Of a DNA stretch of 64,000 nucleotides, positions 4,425 through 33,338 are shown in pieces. The translations under genes were made by a program, and so were the position numbers. Positions within the stretch are counted from its first letter, which is position 1. Each line of letters opens with the position of its first letter. A model generated the notes under the pieces. It searched no databases and was not told the origin of the DNA. It saw only the letters and a program-made list of their open reading frames with translations. Origin of the DNA: a virus; IMG/VR virus record IMGVR_UViG_3300029267_003762, positions 1 to 64,000 of that record; one strand, given 5' to 3'.

Positions 4425-4907
4425 ATGATGGAGTACAACGAGGTTGTACCGCTGTACGCGGACAAGTTCTTCGCTCGTGTGGGCTCTCCTACTTCGACAG
4501 GGTGCCGAGAGTGGCAAGCCGGACTGGACAAGGACGGTTACGGCCACTTTCAGTTTCGGCACGAAGGCAAGAAGTACAAGGTTCGAGCTCATCGAGCGGC
4601 CTACATGTTGGCCGGCAACTGGCTGCCTCCGGGCGCCATTCTCCGACATACCTGCGACAATCCTGCGTGCGTGAACCCTGAGCACCTTCTGTGGGGTACA
4701 CACGCTGACAACGTTCAAGACTGCGTGAGTCGGGGAAGGAACGCGTTTGGGGAAGGTAACGGCAGGCATGTCATGTGTGACGACGAGGTGTTGGAGCTTC
4801 GAGCTTCTGCCTCTTCTTTCATCCATGAGCAAGCGCACAAGTACGGTGTCGATGAGGCGGCCATACGCGCTGCGTTAGCCCAGCGTACTTGGACCCATGT
4901 GCCTTGA
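4425..4907 (+). CDS. HNH homing endonuclease
   Basis: The 160-residue protein shows the HNH_3 arrangement: LRHTCDNPACVNPEHL around residues 73-88 with H75, the Cys77/Cys82 pair, N84 and H87, followed by W-G-T-H-A-D-N. This is the layout of free-standing and intron-borne HNH nucleases that nick DNA to spread themselves. A short helical DNA-recognition tail follows. It begins 14 bases after the tmRNA end and is followed by the tRNA cluster, a usual insertion niche for such selfish genes. Start ATG ATG at 4425 follows AAAGGG. Confidence 0.9.
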   Translation: MMEYNEVVPLYADKFFARVGSPTSTGCREWQAGLDKDGYGHFQFRHEGKKYKVRAHRAAYMLAGNWLPPGAILRHTCDNPACVNPEHLLWGTHADNVQDCVSRGRNAFGEGNGRHVMCDDEVLELRASASSFIHEQAHKYGVDEAAIRAALAQRTWTHVP

Positions 4908-5281: not shown

Positions 5282-5354
5282 GAGCCTGATACTCGAAGGA
5301 ACGAGTGCACGAGTTCTTGTCGTGTTTCTGCAGGTTCGAGTCCTGCCAGGCTCG
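5282..5354 (+). tRNA. tRNA-Arg(UCU)
   Basis: A full cloverleaf can be drawn: acceptor GAGCCTG 5282-5288 with CAGGCTC 5347-5353, D-stem ACTC/GAGT, anticodon stem CACGA/TCGTG with loop GTTCTTG, and T-arm GCAGG-TTCGAGT-CCTGC. The anticodon is TCT (5315-5317), reading AGA/AGG, codons rare in a high-G+C genome. Oddities are G32 and U37 in the loop. CCA is not encoded. Supplementing rare Arg codons is a usual phage tRNA role. Confidence 0.8.
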
Positions 5355-5446
5355 CTGGGTACCTGGGTCCCCCTCCGTCGACGGAGGACAGGCCCGGGGT
5401 CGGAGGGATGGGCTCCTACTCAAGCCCGTGATGATGCTGCATGCGG

Positions 5447-5512
5447 ACCTGGGTCGCTCAATGGTAGGGTACGTGGGGACACGGTATGCGGGTTCGACTC
5501 CCGTCCCATCTC
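5447..5512 (+). tRNA. Degenerate tRNA-like element
   Basis: The T-arm (GCGGG 5488-5492, loop TTCGACT, CCCGT) and a D-arm (GCTC-AATGGTA-GGGT) are clear, and the acceptor pairs at five of seven positions. Only 16 nt separate the D-stem and position 26 from the T-stem, where about 22 are expected, so there is no room for a normal 5-bp/7-nt anticodon arm. CGTG-GGGA-CACG would form a four-base-pair mini-hairpin instead. It is probably a decayed tRNA or a tRNA mimic. Confidence 0.4.
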
Positions 5513-5537
5513 ATTCAACGTGTGCAGCCTCTCTCAT

Positions 5538-5617: not shown

Positions 5618-5809
5618 ATGAAAGCTCGAGCAGTAGAGGTGGTGATCACGGTGCTGTGCTTGGTGGCCGCCGGCGCGGTCGCCTACTTCATGCTTCGGCC
5701 TGGTCCATGTGACGGCGTGAAGTGCCCCGAGGGCACCTACCCCATGGAGCAAGGCGCCGGACTGTTCACCTCGAGGTGCTCGTGCATCGGGCATCCGAAG
5801 GATCCGTAG
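5618..5809 (+). CDS. Small single-span membrane protein, Cys-rich exported part
   Basis: The 63-residue product opens two bases after the tRNA CCA and ends inside the 5' end of the next tRNA. A hydrophobic segment (about residues 8-26, VVITVLCLVAAGAVAYF) is followed by a short domain with CDGVKCPEG and CSC, four cysteines that could form disulphides outside the membrane. No clear ribosome site is seen. It may be an accessory membrane peptide; the reading frame could also be fortuitous between two tRNAs. Confidence 0.45.
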   Translation: MKARAVEVVITVLCLVAAGAVAYFMLRPGPCDGVKCPEGTYPMEQGAGLFTSRCSCIGHPKDP

Positions 5810-5873
5810 CTCAATTGGTGAGAGCCCCCGGCTCATAACCGGGCTGTTGGCGGTTCGAACCCGCCCGGATCTA
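5800..5873 (+). tRNA. tRNA-Met(CAU), elongator-like
   Basis: Acceptor GGATCCG 5800-5806 pairs with CGGATCT 5866-5872 (one G-U). The D-stem GCTC/GAGC, anticodon stem CCCGG/CCGGG with loop CTCATAA (CAT 5834-5836) and T-arm GGCGG-TTCGAAC-CCGCC are all complete. The discriminator is A; CCA is not encoded. The overall sequence is close to bacterial elongator tRNA-Met, although a lysidine-modified tRNA-Ile(CAU) cannot be excluded from sequence alone. Confidence 0.85.
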
Positions 5874-5874
5874 C

Positions 5875-6396
5875 TGAGTTCTGTCAGGAGGTAGGCCTAG
5901 AAGCAGCCATCCTTCAAAGAGTCGCCAATGGCAGCAGCCGGAGTACCAGCGATGGACCGCCGGCCCGAGAGGCTTCGGCCTCGAAGCGTCCCACCAGACG
6001 TTTGCACCACCAGGTTAGTCCCAGGTGGGAGTCTTAGAGCTCATTGGGGAATGTGGGCGTAGAGCCATCGGGAAGCGAATGTGGGAGGTAAACCGCGTCA
6101 GCCTTTTCAAAGCCTGGTAACAGGTGGAGTTCCTGAGTCCTGACGTGGGGGAAGTACCATCAGTAGCACGGCCGGTTTTGCCCGCACGGACGAGAGGAAC
6201 TGCGGGTTTGACTTGAAGGGATCAGAATGAGCCCTGTGCCCCTTCGGGGATGACCGGTACAGCCCTAAGAGCGTTTGGCGTAGCAGCACACTGTCAGAAC
6301 TCGCAACTCAGGGACGGCGGCATGGTGTCTGGGGAGACCCCAGGCCGGCCCGCTCGGGGGTTCATGAAACACCGCCGTCCTCTCTTTTTAGCCGCC
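5875..6396 (+). ncRNA. Putative large structured RNA containing a 23S rRNA GTPase-centre-like arm
   Basis: This half-kilobase has no coding frame and lies between a tRNA and a strong terminator. Positions 5885-5920 match the L11/thiostrepton-binding region of bacterial 23S rRNA (E. coli 1053-1088) at about 32 of 36 bases without gaps, recalled from memory and using A at 1061. The U1058-A1080 pair is replaced by G5890-C5912, a compensatory change, and the A1067 equivalent is A5899. Downstream are UUCG-capped hairpins (5969-5982; 6239-6249), and the segment finishes with a GGACGGCGG/CCGCCGTCC stem plus a U-run. It may be a member of the ornate tRNA-linked phage RNAs (GOLLD/ROOL type) or a new family. 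Confidence 0.55.
6311..6389 (+). terminator. Branched rho-independent terminator
   Basis: GGGACGGCGG 6311-6320 pairs with CCGCCGTCC 6372-6380 and is followed by TCTCTTTTT. Inside lies a second perfect hairpin, CTGGGG-AGA-CCCCAG. It closes the RNA island before the next protein gene. Confidence 0.8.
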
Positions 6397-30616: not shown

Positions 30617-30734
30617 TTGAACCGTGATCGACCTCCGACCTCGTCATTGACAGTCAGCCCCTCGAGGGCCCCCAACGCCCGGCGCCTCAGCCCCCCAATA
30701 GCGACCGGGCGTTGCCGTGCTCGGAGGTCGACAT

Positions 30735-30807
30735 CGCTCCGTGGCCAAGTGGCAAGGCACCGTCCCTAATGACGGCGGGATCGGAGGTTCGAATCCTCCC
30801 GGAGCGG
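30735..30807 (+). tRNA. Gln-family tRNA with abnormal anticodon loop
   Basis: Acceptor CGCTCCG/CGGAGCG, D-arm GCC-AAGTGGCAA-GGC and T-arm GGAGG-TTCGAAT-CCTCC are perfect, and G73 plus the D-arm match bacterial tRNA-Gln. The anticodon stem CCGTC/GACGG encloses only six bases (CCTAAT), one fewer than normal. By alignment to tRNA-Gln the anticodon would be CTA (amber), but because TAG is used as an ordinary stop in this window, true suppression is doubtful. Confidence 0.6.
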
Positions 30808-30870
30808 CAGGCCGAGCAGCGGGTAAGAGCGTGTACGGGAAAGCTGCTAGGACGGCACGCCAGCACTCAA

Positions 30871-30949
30871 GGACGGGTAGCTCAATCGGTAGAGCGTCGA
30901 TATGACCAATGGTCCCGCTATGATGGGGGTTCGATCCCTCCCCCGTCCG
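30871..30949 (+). tRNA. tRNA-like element with extended, irregular anticodon region
   Basis: Acceptor GGACGGG/CCCGTCC, D-arm GCTC/GAGC and T-arm GGGGG-TTCGATC-CCTCC are intact. The 28 nt between D-stem and T-stem do not fold into a 5-bp/7-nt arm; GACC-AAT-GGTC forms a short hairpin instead. The anticodon cannot be assigned. It abuts the convergent gene ending at 30950. Confidence 0.5.
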
Positions 30950-31138
30950 CTACAGCGAAGCACGCACGGCGGCGTCCTTGGCCACCAGCAGCATCTGCAG
31001 AGCGAACGTGCGCTGGTTGCAAGCGGGCAGCTCCTCGAAGAGCTTCTTGGCGAGCTCGCCGAACGGCTTGCTCACCTTCTGGAGCTTCTCGGGCAGGTGC
31101 TCGTAGTCGAAGTACAGCATCAGTTCCGCGTCCATCAT
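30950..31138 (-). CDS. Acb2/Tad1-like hairpin protein, candidate anti-CBASS sponge
   Basis: The 62-residue protein starts at 31138. The sequence (ELMLYFDYEHLPEKLQKVSK ... LPACNQRTFALQMLLVAKDAAVRA) follows the layout of the small alpha-helical Acb2/Tad1-hairpin family: an aromatic near the N-terminus, P-E-K, K-x2-F-x2-LA, LP, R-x3-AL-x2-L-x2-A-x2-A-x-RA. Characterised Acb2 proteins sequester cyclic nucleotides made by CBASS and Thoeris and so block defence. Family membership is inferred from pattern. It ends against the tRNA and opens the minus-strand cluster. Confidence 0.65.
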   Translation of the reverse strand: MMDAELMLYFDYEHLPEKLQKVSKPFGELAKKLFEELPACNQRTFALQMLLVAKDAAVRASL

Positions 31139-31386
31139 CCTTCTCCCTTCTCCTCGGCCCCAGTTTCCTGGTCCAGTTGGTACGTGCCTGCATCGCCAGG
31201 ATCGTTCGCCACCTTTTCGAGCTTGCTCTTGAGCATCTGGAAGAGTGGGTCGTCATCCATGAGACGGCCCCCCTCTGTTCGGTCGAGCACGTAGCTGATG
31301 AGGTAGAGCGCCACTTTGGCCACGTTGCGTGGCGTTGTGAGCTTCGCCTCAACCGTCTTCTCGAGTACTTCGAATGGTACAGGCAT
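31135..31386 (-). CDS. Small unknown protein
   Basis: The 83-residue product begins at 31386 and overlaps the downstream Acb2-like gene by four bases. It is helical with a glutamate-rich end (QETGAEEKGEG). There is nothing diagnostic. Co-transcription with its neighbours on the minus strand is likely. Confidence 0.6.
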   Translation of the reverse strand: MPVPFEVLEKTVEAKLTTPRNVAKVALYLISYVLDRTEGGRLMDDDPLFQMLKSKLEKVANDPGDAGTYQLDQETGAEEKGEG

Positions 31387-31785
31387 CTATCTCTCCTTCG
31401 TAAGCTCACTGAGCTGGTCGATGGTGTCCTGCTGCTTCTTCGAAAACACTTGGAGCTCCTCGTAGTCCTTGCGGGGCACGTAGTCCTGCTTCTTGATGAC
31501 GCTCACGGCCGCCGGCTCGTACTGCAGTTTGGCGGCCAGGTCGGCGATGGTGGATATGAGCACGTGCGGATCGTCTCCACGTCGCAAGCACACTTTGCGG
31601 CTGACACGGGTCGCCCCATCGGTCAGCTCGAAGACGAGCTCCACGTACTCGCTGTCCGGCGTGGGCTCGTAGTGCACGATGCGGCCGCTGGCATCGTGGA
31701 TCTTGGTGGTGTCCCGCCCTGCGCCCCACGCCGTGACGATGATCTGGTACTTCTCGTTGTCGACAGTCGGCATCCAATCCTCCAT
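31387..31785 (-). CDS. Unknown protein with C-terminal coiled coil
   Basis: The 132-residue product has an N-terminal beta region (QIIVTAWGAGRDTTKIHDAS) followed by a basic turn and a helical coiled-coil tail (SKKQQDTIDQLSELTK). Genes on both sides abut without a gap. Family unknown. Confidence 0.6.
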   Translation of the reverse strand: MEDWMPTVDNEKYQIIVTAWGAGRDTTKIHDASGRIVHYEPTPDSEYVELVFELTDGATRVSRKVCLRRGDDPHVLISTIADLAAKLQYEPAAVSVIKKQDYVPRKDYEELQVFSKKQQDTIDQLSELTKER

Positions 31786-32187
31786 CTATCCCTTCCCTCC
31801 TGGGGGTGTTGCCCAGTTCGTTCCCGCCGGCGCCCGAATCCACCACCAGTCTTCGGGCCAGTCGTCCCCCTCGCTGATGGTGTCGCGCTCGTCACGCGAA
31901 CGGAGTCCTGGCCGGGCGCCGAGATGCACGTAGTAGGCGTGTTTGGTCTCGCACGTGCCGCACACGGCTTCGATGCCGTCAGCGGTCGGCCGCAGGACCA
32001 CGATGATCGAGGTCTTGTAGATGTCGATGCGGGGGTCTGTGCTCTTCCAGCCGCCGACGAGAAGCGCCCTGTTCTCTCCTTGCACTTCGGCCATGGCAGC
32101 ACGGGAGCTAGCCAGGTTTGCCCTGAGCTGTTGAACTTCCTTCTCGAGTTCGTTGATCTGCCGTTCAGCTTCGTCTCGGTCACGCAT
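31786..32187 (-). CDS. Unknown protein with N-terminal coiled coil
   Basis: The 133-residue product starts with a coiled coil (about residues 5-45, AERQINELEKEVQQLRANL), then beta strands with CGTCE and a Trp-rich Asp/Glu segment (EDWWWIRAP). Operon spacing supports translation. Function unknown. Confidence 0.6.
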   Translation of the reverse strand: MRDRDEAERQINELEKEVQQLRANLASSRAAMAEVQGENRALLVGGWKSTDPRIDIYKTSIIVVLRPTADGIEAVCGTCETKHAYYVHLGARPGLRSRDERDTISEGDDWPEDWWWIRAPAGTNWATPPGGKG

Positions 32188-32532
32188 CTACTCCTCCTCG
32201 AAGCTGTCGGGCATGGCGCCTCCTGTGGCTGCTGCGGCAATGGGAGGCTCCGCATACTCGGCGAACGTGAGCACGAAGCTCTTGTTGCGAAGCCAACAGC
32301 GGGAGTCCACCTCTCGGTCGAAGTCGGCCACCAAGATCTCCTCGCCCATCATTCCGCACATCATCGTGTGCTCGCCCCGCCCTTTCTCTGCGTAGCAGCA
32401 GGGGCAGGCAAAGCAGTTCGTGATGAACTGTTCGTCGTACGGTTGTTCGTCTGTGTTCGAGCCCTTGCCTACCGCGGCGTAGCCAATGGCGATCTCGTTG
32501 GTGGCGTCGACTGCGGATTCGTCTTTCCCCAT
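32188..32532 (-). CDS. Cys-rich small protein
   Basis: The 114-residue product has a CFACPCCYAEKG cluster, then Cys in MMCGMMG and SRCW, compatible with a metal site. Ends are acidic. Family unknown. It abuts the neighbouring genes. Confidence 0.6.
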   Translation of the reverse strand: MGKDESAVDATNEIAIGYAAVGKGSNTDEQPYDEQFITNCFACPCCYAEKGRGEHTMMCGMMGEEILVADFDREVDSRCWLRNKSFVLTFAEYAEPPIAAAATGGAMPDSFEEE

Positions 32533-32535
32533 GAC

Positions 32536-32997
32536 CTAGTCCTCCGTCGTGCTGAGCATCAGGATGTGGTGCTTCTTCTTGAGCGGGCACTCGGGGTCGA
32601 CCTGTTCGGAGGTGTCCACCGTGATCTCGTGCTGAACGATGAACTTGCGCCCCCTGCGATCCGTGCCTTCAGTCTCGGGTGGCATGAGCGAGCAGAGCTT
32701 GTCGTCTTCGACGACGAGGCAGGGGCAGTCGTCGCAGCACTTCACCAGCACCTGTTCGATCTCTTCGGGGACCGGGTAGTTGCGAGGGCTCGCCTCCTTC
32801 ACGAACTTGCTCAGCCGAACCCCGCCCATCTTCTCGATACCATCGAGGTCCATGTAGCCACCGTCCTGCTCCGGCAGCTCGAGCCCGAGTGCAGTAGCGG
32901 CGTCGCAGATCGAGTTCCACATGTCGCCCATGTGGTCCGCCAGGCAGGCGTCGCGCGCCATGCACAGCAGCATCTTCTTCATCTCGTCTTTACCCAT
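32536..32997 (-). CDS. Unknown protein with CCDDCPC cluster
   Basis: The 153-residue protein opens at 32997, whose ribosome site GGGAGGA lies within the leader shared with the divergent PTH2 gene. N-terminal helices are followed by a CCDDCPCLVVEDDKLCSL cluster. This could bind metal. Function unknown. Confidence 0.6.
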   Translation of the reverse strand: MGKDEMKKMLLCMARDACLADHMGDMWNSICDAATALGLELPEQDGGYMDLDGIEKMGGVRLSKFVKEASPRNYPVPEEIEQVLVKCCDDCPCLVVEDDKLCSLMPPETEGTDRRGRKFIVQHEITVDTSEQVDPECPLKKKHHILMLSTTED

Positions 32998-33008
32998 GAG
33001 GTCCTCCC

Positions 33009-33338
33009 ATGAAGCTCTACATCGTCGTCCGCAACGATCTCGCCCCTGGCCTTCAGGCCGCGCAGGCCGTCCACGCCAAGGAGCTGTTCACCCACGAGCA
33101 CTCCGAGCTCAATGCCGAGTGGTACGAGAAGTCGAACAACATCGTTCTGCTTCAGGTGCCGAGCAAGGAAGAGCTCGTGGCGCTTGCGTATCGCATGACG
33201 ACCCAGTCGATCCAGACGAGTCTGTTTCGGGAGCCGGATCTGGGGAACGAGCCGACTGCGATCGCAGTTGGGCCTGATGGCGCTCGGCTGCTTTCGACGT
33301 TGCCTTTGGCTCTGCGTGATATCCGTCAAGCTGCTTGA
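33009..33338 (+). CDS. Peptidyl-tRNA hydrolase, PTH2 family
   Basis: The 109-residue product matches the PTH2 fold layout: KLYIVVRNDLAPGLQAAQAV at the N-terminus, W-Y-E-K-S-N-N-I-V-L-L-Q-V in the middle, then FREPDLGNEPTAIAV, and a LLSTLPLAL end. PTH2 releases peptides from stalled peptidyl-tRNAs, complementing the tmRNA and tRNAs. It is the only plus-strand gene here and is divergent from 32997. The last 230 bases are antisense to a minus-strand gene. Confidence 0.8.
   Translation: MKLYIVVRNDLAPGLQAAQAVHAKELFTHEHSELNAEWYEKSNNIVLLQVPSKEELVALAYRMTTQSIQTSLFREPDLGNEPTAIAVGPDGARLLSTLPLALRDIRQAA

Follow-up and report, generated by a model that had tools for sequence, protein, structure and literature searches.

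A phage locus rich in RNA genes

The DNA analysed here (the window, 64,000 nucleotides) is the opening 64 kb of the record of an uncultivated virus, 92,246 bases long, and has a G+C content of 61–64%. The larger window proteins that were tested were mostly without any match; a thymidylate synthase could be recognised. An RNA-rich island extends over approximately 4–6.4 kb. It contains a phage tmRNA (4052–4411, tag ANDNNALAAVA), directly followed by an HNH endonuclease gene (4425–4907), tRNAs at 5282, 5538 and 5800, the element described below and a terminator-like hairpin. The stretch 5405–5515 resembles a tRNA and has a clean T-arm (GCGGGTTCGACTCCCGT); ARAGORN made no call there and the tRNA-Sec match was weak (20 bits). 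Elsewhere in the window, the tRNAs Ile AAT and Val GAC (30735–30950) overlap the start of the long mechanical ORF 30712–33012, suggesting that its true start lies further downstream.

The tRNA at 5800–5874 (plus strand, CAU anticodon) was identified by ARAGORN and by Rfam RF00005 (65.6 bits), and the element under study begins 1–2 nt past its 3' end. The terminator-like structure, recognised by folding and sequence, is located at 6310–6390 (plus strand) and consists of a 9–10 bp stem (GGACGGCGG/CCGCCGTCC) followed by TCTCTTTTT. This branched structure includes GGGGGTTCATGAAACACC, which resembles a T-arm, and may be a decayed tRNA. The initial annotation had described a near copy of the 23S rRNA GTPase-centre arm at 5885–5932, lying after a tRNA and before a terminator within sequence otherwise unrelated to 23S rRNA. 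Both the position and the nature of the flanks held: Rfam scans of the window gave no LSU match, the bacterial LSU model RF02541 remaining silent at E ≤ 5 or 10. No tRNA or tmRNA was detected within 5876–6302 by ARAGORN or Rfam.

A GTPase-associated centre split by an insert

Judged by its sequence, the window RNA at approximately 5876–6302 is a complete GTPase-associated centre (GAC; helices 42, 43 and 44) that is split by a 351-nt insert between the equivalents of 23S positions 1090 and 1091. Owing to this split, the proper span of the feature is 5876–6302 and not 5885–5932 as first proposed. All parts are on the plus strand. The stretch 5885–5920 (CAGGAGGTAGGCCTAGAAGCAGCCATCCTTCAAAGA) aligns without gaps to 23S 1053–1088, as the initial annotation had noted, with 31 of 36 identities to E. 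coli and 33 of 36 to 23S sequences having the common G1058–C1080 pair. A simple calculation puts the expected number of 36-nt matches with five or fewer mismatches at about 1e-9 in 128 kb of random sequence; chance is excluded as an explanation. The alignment confirms 5899 as the equivalent of A1067. The pair 1058–1080 is G–C at 5890/5912 and occurs as G–C, U–A, A–U or C–G across the phage family, four pair types that bear out its earlier description as a compensatory change.

The 5' strand of the closing helix, which is helix-42-like (GAGTTCTGTCAG, 5876–5887, with 5887 corresponding to G1055), forms 11 of 12 pairs with the 3' strand CTGTCAGAACTC (6291–6302, 6291 being C1104), a pairing supported by family covariation. 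Positions 5888–5922 correspond to 23S 1056–1090, including helix 43 and the 1082–1088 segment, and show one mismatch to the family consensus; the assignment also rests on a position-by-position comparison with 23S. The structured insert (5923–6273), delimited by family alignment and folding, differs in sequence among phages and opens with the stem P3, whose strands CGC (5923–5925) and GCG (6271–6273) are supported by covariation. It is followed by a linker UUUG (6274–6277), kept in 121 of 131 elements in the family alignment, and by the equivalent of 23S 1091–1104 (6278–6291), where alignment and 23S comparison place the helix 44 hairpin GCGUAGCAGC, A1095 at 6282 and the derived A1101 of the family at 6288. 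The helix 44 half (6274–6291, UUUG-GCGUAGCAGCACAC) thus lies 350 nt downstream of 5885–5920. Taken to its end, the segment 6274–6302 (TTTGGCGTAGCAGCACACTGTCAGAACTC) reads as UUUG, 23S 1091–1104 with A1101, and a tail that pairs with the closing-helix 5' strand.

The equivalents of A1095, A1096 and U1097 had been placed at 5927–5929. Those positions, however, already belong to the beginning of the insert, and alignment with 130 relatives places the true equivalents at 6282–6284 (A, G, C) in GGCGTAGCAGCACAC (6277–6291). Hence, of the claimed copy of the GAC arm in a phage RNA, the GAC-like fold is real and is no rRNA fragment, whereas the placement of helix 44 was wrong. When the window RNA was folded without constraints, the closing helix and some of helix 43 were recovered but the split helix 44 was missed, and the fold was only weakly better than shuffles (z −1.8).

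The split architecture recurs in many unrelated phages

The split GAC architecture was found in at least 133 distinct elements from at least 125 independent locus groups, in metagenomic phages and in 13 named isolate genomes. A 56-nt BLAST query found the motif in phages GAP32, CBB, Astolliot, pf16, Aeromonas 4_4572, XacN1 and UNO-G1W1, each time where nothing is annotated, and six more isolate genomes (Milchi, Kaldavass, XaC1, XbC2, BF and pEa_SNUABM_12) have the full architecture; the 3' half of a match in Vibrio phage 2.275.O is doubtful. In Milchi and Kaldavass, hypothetical proteins are annotated over part of the element. A BLAST search of phages with the whole 531-nt window RNA gave no match because the inserts do not align. 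Several matches were set aside: those in T7-like Pseudomonas phages (AH05 and kin) lie inside a CDS and are due to chance, Paenibacillus Pd_22F is true 23S, and plasmid matches were indistinguishable from true 23S.

Scanning IMG/VR for the helix 43 half returned 78 loci, of which one (L076) is true 23S and was likewise set aside. A scan for the helix 44 half returned at least 120 rows, nearly all of which on inspection had a helix 43 half upstream. Conversely, all non-23S helix-43-like sites with enough downstream sequence had a helix 44 half within 600 nt except L199, and at two such sites it was present only as a more divergent copy. About 1.85 kb separates the two halves in L199 (3180–5085), which looks as though the insert had been invaded by a mobile element or intron. 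On the minus strand of L102 and L112 there is a recognisable helix 44 half, and the sequence upstream of this motif has no recognisable helix 43 tip, L112 also containing TATAATGAGT; these elements possibly form a degenerate or divergent class. A stricter helix 44 pattern matched only 18 loci among 84,980 bacterial and archaeal species genomes, and thus the phage GAC RNA is not a bacterial housekeeping RNA.

The two-half finder, which required 6 of 10 closing pairs, returned 134 rows. One is spurious, joining halves in L175 a second time across an insert of 421 nt, and the 133 distinct elements remain. Being ungapped, it misaligned two to three elements with an extra helix 43 hairpin (L135, L137, L157, L173). 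The family size is a lower bound.

Covariation and tertiary pairs

In an independent count over 42 diverse elements, the covariation score was 0.620, compared with 0.146 for shuffled and at most 0.21 for slid partners, and 93% of cells were paired, compared with 36–54% with partners slid. Among 131 elements, covariation extends over the closing helix, helix 43 and P3: 1054–1105 was paired in 99% (73% shuffled), 1053–1106 in 90% (47%) and 1058–1080 in 98% (43%). The three P3 pairs formed in 99, 97 and 92% (60, 57 and 44% shuffled), and in 100% of the A1 set. Since the finder itself selects for pairs of the closing helix, this requirement was dropped in a second test of that helix: elements formed 7.8 of 9 pairs with their own strands and 4.6 with strands of other elements, and the total of 920 exceeded the maximum of 589 in 2000 permutations.

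The tertiary pair 1082–1086 is U–A in 85, C–G in 27 and A–U in 14 phage elements (97%, three types, n = 131), compared with U–A throughout 27 bacterial 23S sequences. The second tertiary pair, 1060–1088, has the standard letters in 131 of 131 elements and is nearly invariant. G1091–C1100 and C1092–G1099, the upper two pairs of helix 44, are likewise found in 131 of 131, so that helix 44 rests on sequence identity and not on covariation. With its helix 42/43/44 junction and the GAC tertiary pairs, the element has, as read from these alignments, the GAC fold in the sense of a structural module.

Position 1101 is A in 128 of 131 phage elements, where it faces U1090, and is always U in the 23S sequences compared; the insert therefore follows a U1090–A1101 pair. 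This shared derived base suggests a single origin and long independent evolution, not contamination or repeated capture. A 23S rRNA fragment acquired by recombination or contamination, which the 36-nt stretch taken by itself resembles, is refuted by the split architecture, by A1101, by compensatory changes absent from 23S and by the more than 100 independent phage loci including isolate genomes, and we give it virtually no weight. Lack of covariation, or a match that was part of a longer contaminating rRNA, had been named by the initial annotation as grounds for abandoning its proposal. Covariation very strongly supports the rRNA-like fold, and contamination is ruled out by the architecture, A1101 and the independent loci.

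Conservation pattern

Because some search patterns fixed parts of one half, conservation inside these patterns is partly ascertained, while the pair statistics outside them are unaffected. The near-invariant core comprises U1060 and A1085 (131/131 each), A1077 (130/131), A1088 and G1087 (129/131 each), and positions 1060, 1063, 1071, 1072, 1075, 1077, 1085, 1087, 1088, 1091–1094 and 1098–1100 are 98–100% fixed. The exposed A1095 is kept in 126 of 131 elements (96%). Base 1067 is A in 116 of 131 (89%), the other 15 having G, C or U, and a purine in 127. Positions 1068, 1070, 1096 and 1097 drift, for the most part from purine to purine or from pyrimidine to pyrimidine. Bases 1068–1070 and 1096 show no variation in the 27 23S sequences compared but drift in the phages, so that selection does not enforce an exact copy of the factor-facing surface. 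Selection is strongest on the fold and the inner surface and weaker on the factor-facing tip.

These tip positions bear on whether the RNA is a decoy that keeps translational GTPases, RelA-type factors or a GAC-recognising host defence or toxin protein off the ribosome. Isolated RNA of the thiostrepton loop binds EF-G, as reported by Munishkin and Wool (1997; cited in PMC5829649). A1067 and A1095 are mostly kept, and the element lies among tRNA genes, a known counter-defence location. Nevertheless, the exposed positions 1068–1070 and 1096–1097 drift, the identity of base 1067 is not strict, and there is no accompanying sarcin–ricin-loop mimic: a sarcin–ricin-loop-like ACGAGAGGAAC is located in the window's insert at 6190–6200, and the ACGAGAGG motif occurs in only 4 of 131 inserts and was treated as chance. 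Moreover, we know of no defence protein that targets the GAC. We regard such a decoy as rather unlikely.

The insert and a second expansion site

Insert lengths range from 23 to 365 nt among the at least 133 elements, with no common core. The sequences form recurrent types, the commonest of which (27 elements) ends in CACCCC-hairpin-GGTAAGG. No tRNA was found in the inserts of any of 131 elements, and a comparison with other rRNA gave nothing convincing. In L035, the 23-nt insert leaves little beyond the bare GAC. The common denominator of the family is the GAC and not the insert. Ten elements (L094, L134, L135, L137, L150, L156, L157, L171, L173 and L176) carry an extra hairpin right after A1077, so that the phage GAC can also expand at a second place, 1077/1078.

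The GAC might serve only as a clamp, its compact K+/Mg2+-dependent fold holding together the base of a large RNA, with the function residing in the insert. Large inserts of recurrent types and the second insertion site would agree with this, as would the higher conservation of core tertiary positions relative to exposed ones. The GAC, however, is always kept while the inserts vary without a shared core down to the near-bare L035, and a pure clamp would not need the conserved exposed bases A1095 and A1067. On balance a purely structural role seems improbable, to about the same degree as the factor decoy.

Genomic context

At the loci examined, 914 tRNAs lie on the same strand as the element and one on the opposite strand (the window's own tRNA at 49 kb). 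The element starts within 10 nt of the 3' end of an upstream tRNA in 33 of 133 cases and ends within 10 nt of the 5' end of a downstream tRNA in 25. A same-strand tRNA within 300 nt was present for 76 of 133 elements, compared with 33% if elements were placed randomly in these tRNA-rich stretches. The location within tRNA arrays indicates probable co-transcription with the tRNAs and, presumably, trimming by the same enzymes. Across at least 125 independent loci no common protein neighbour was found except homing-endonuclease-like genes (GIY-YIG, HNH and RRXRR-type), and the RNA thus probably acts by itself. Three independent loci (L195 cluster) have a gene for a DUF2828 protein on the element's strand, 1.5–2.9 kb downstream. 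The neighbours, tRNAs and unrelated phage genes, are not those of a ribosomal-protein leader.

Could the tRNAs themselves be the partner, the GAC head stacking on their elbows via base 1067 and so chaperoning, protecting or counting phage tRNAs? By itself, the GAC is not known as a tight binder of tRNA. On the ribosome, A1067 stacks on the tRNA elbow (PMC5829649), and the family resides in tRNA arrays, often abutting tRNAs, with a purine at 1067 in nearly all elements. Against this, many other elements help to hold the elbow on the ribosome, the identities of the neighbouring tRNAs are unrestricted, and 34 of 133 loci, many of them short stretches, showed no tRNA. A tRNA partner appears somewhat less probable still than a factor decoy or a clamp.

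A possible decoy for uL11

Our main reading is that the RNA acts in trans, presenting its GAC as a decoy or docking site to which host uL11 would be the first to bind; we put its probability at roughly 0.4. Of the ligands of the isolated 58-nt GAC, uL11 is the best known. The isolated RNA folds autonomously and binds L11, which in turn stabilises the fold (PMC4409310, PMC10161774). By analogy with this binding, with the reported binding of EF-G to thiostrepton-loop RNA and with the stacking of A1067 on the tRNA elbow, mimicry is suggested, with uL11 as the likeliest first ligand. Thus, among the roles raised by the initial annotation, namely titration of L11, of GTPases or of RelA, or use of the fold as an RNA building block, capture of L11 would fit best.

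In such a mechanism, the phage RNA would be transcribed and probably processed along with the phage tRNAs and act in trans. It would display an authentic GAC, with helices 42-43-44, tertiary contacts and a variable domain at 1090/1091, and this head would capture host uL11 by molecular mimicry. The insert may position and stabilise the GAC head or carry a phage-specific cargo or activity. Either uL11 would be withheld from ribosomes or the RNA would be brought to uL11, and uL11-dependent functions (RelA activation, release-factor and GTPase activity) would be damped during infection. We infer uL11 binding, transcription, processing and a physiological effect of the phage GAC RNA.

Some observations weigh against uL11 as the partner. 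The extra hairpin after A1077 in ten elements might hinder uL11. The outer helix 42 region, which in 23S rRNA binds L10–L12, is not conserved in the phage elements. Mature ribosomes already hold uL11, and titration consequently needs abundant RNA or exchange. In the conservation data, L11-contact bases are inseparable from fold-critical bases. The broader idea that a widespread class of phage RNAs rebuilds a ribosomal centre so as to sequester or strip away uL11, or a factor that depends on the GAC, and so shut off stringent-response or GTPase-dependent host reactions, is somewhat less probable than uL11 capture itself. If true, it would amount to viral RNA mimicry of an rRNA active site. The occurrence of a free-standing GAC, strongly selected, in more than a hundred independent phage loci offers a direct, testable handle on phage manipulation of translation or the stringent response and accounts for some of the dark RNA in phage tRNA islands. 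The natural GAC variants (A1101, C1082–G1086, A1082–U1086, insertions at 1077 and 1090) would be of use in studies of RNA folding and of the antibiotic site.

Comparison with known RNAs

Rfam 15 scans of the window and relatives, at gathering and permissive thresholds, gave no family covering the element, and other members fall below the threshold of RF02541 (L031, 31 bits compared with 50). No description was found in the open full-text literature, closed-access papers, preprints and supplements being outside the scope of the search; large candidate lists (e.g. PMC8040213) could contain the RNA unnamed. From these comparisons the phage GAC RNA is apparently an undescribed family, new as an RNA class. 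As far as we can tell, it would be the first case known of a virus copying a functional centre of the ribosome in RNA.

GOLLD and ROOL, large phage and prophage RNAs that are structured, often neighbour tRNA islands and have no known function (PMC12286853), resemble the phage GAC RNA in location and size only. The model search suggested by the initial annotation matched neither: the GOLLD model RF02032 gave no match in the window, and ROOL none when the window and 17 relatives were scanned with Rfam 15. In L011, GOLLD RNA (1582–2047) and GAC RNA (2150–2300) are separate elements of the same phage tRNA island, GOLLD being located about 110 nt upstream.

OLE RNA, a large noncoding RNA proposed to sequester the ribosomal protein RpsU (PMC12286853), would be akin to the putative uL11 decoy in that a large noncoding RNA would capture a ribosomal protein; OLE, however, is cellular, and the phage GAC elements have no Rfam OLE match. 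A further parallel concerns the design. Autoregulatory mRNA leaders of ribosomal proteins (L1, L10, L20, S8 and others) copy rRNA binding sites, and so share with the phage element an extra-ribosomal RNA that copies the rRNA site of a ribosomal protein. These leaders act in cis within ribosomal-protein mRNAs, whereas the phage GAC RNA is free-standing between tRNA genes, with no recurrent ribosomal-protein gene nearby.

The closest relative is the 23S GAC itself (helices 42–44, nt 1051–1108; RF02541), one of the best studied RNA folds. Both have the same three-way junction, loop sequences and tertiary pairs 1060–1088 and 1082–1086, and A1067 and A1095 are mostly kept in the phage elements. Unlike its ribosomal counterpart, the phage element is found outside rRNA, in tRNA arrays, has an insert of 23–365 nt at 1090/1091, replaces U1101 with A and leaves helix 42 free in sequence.
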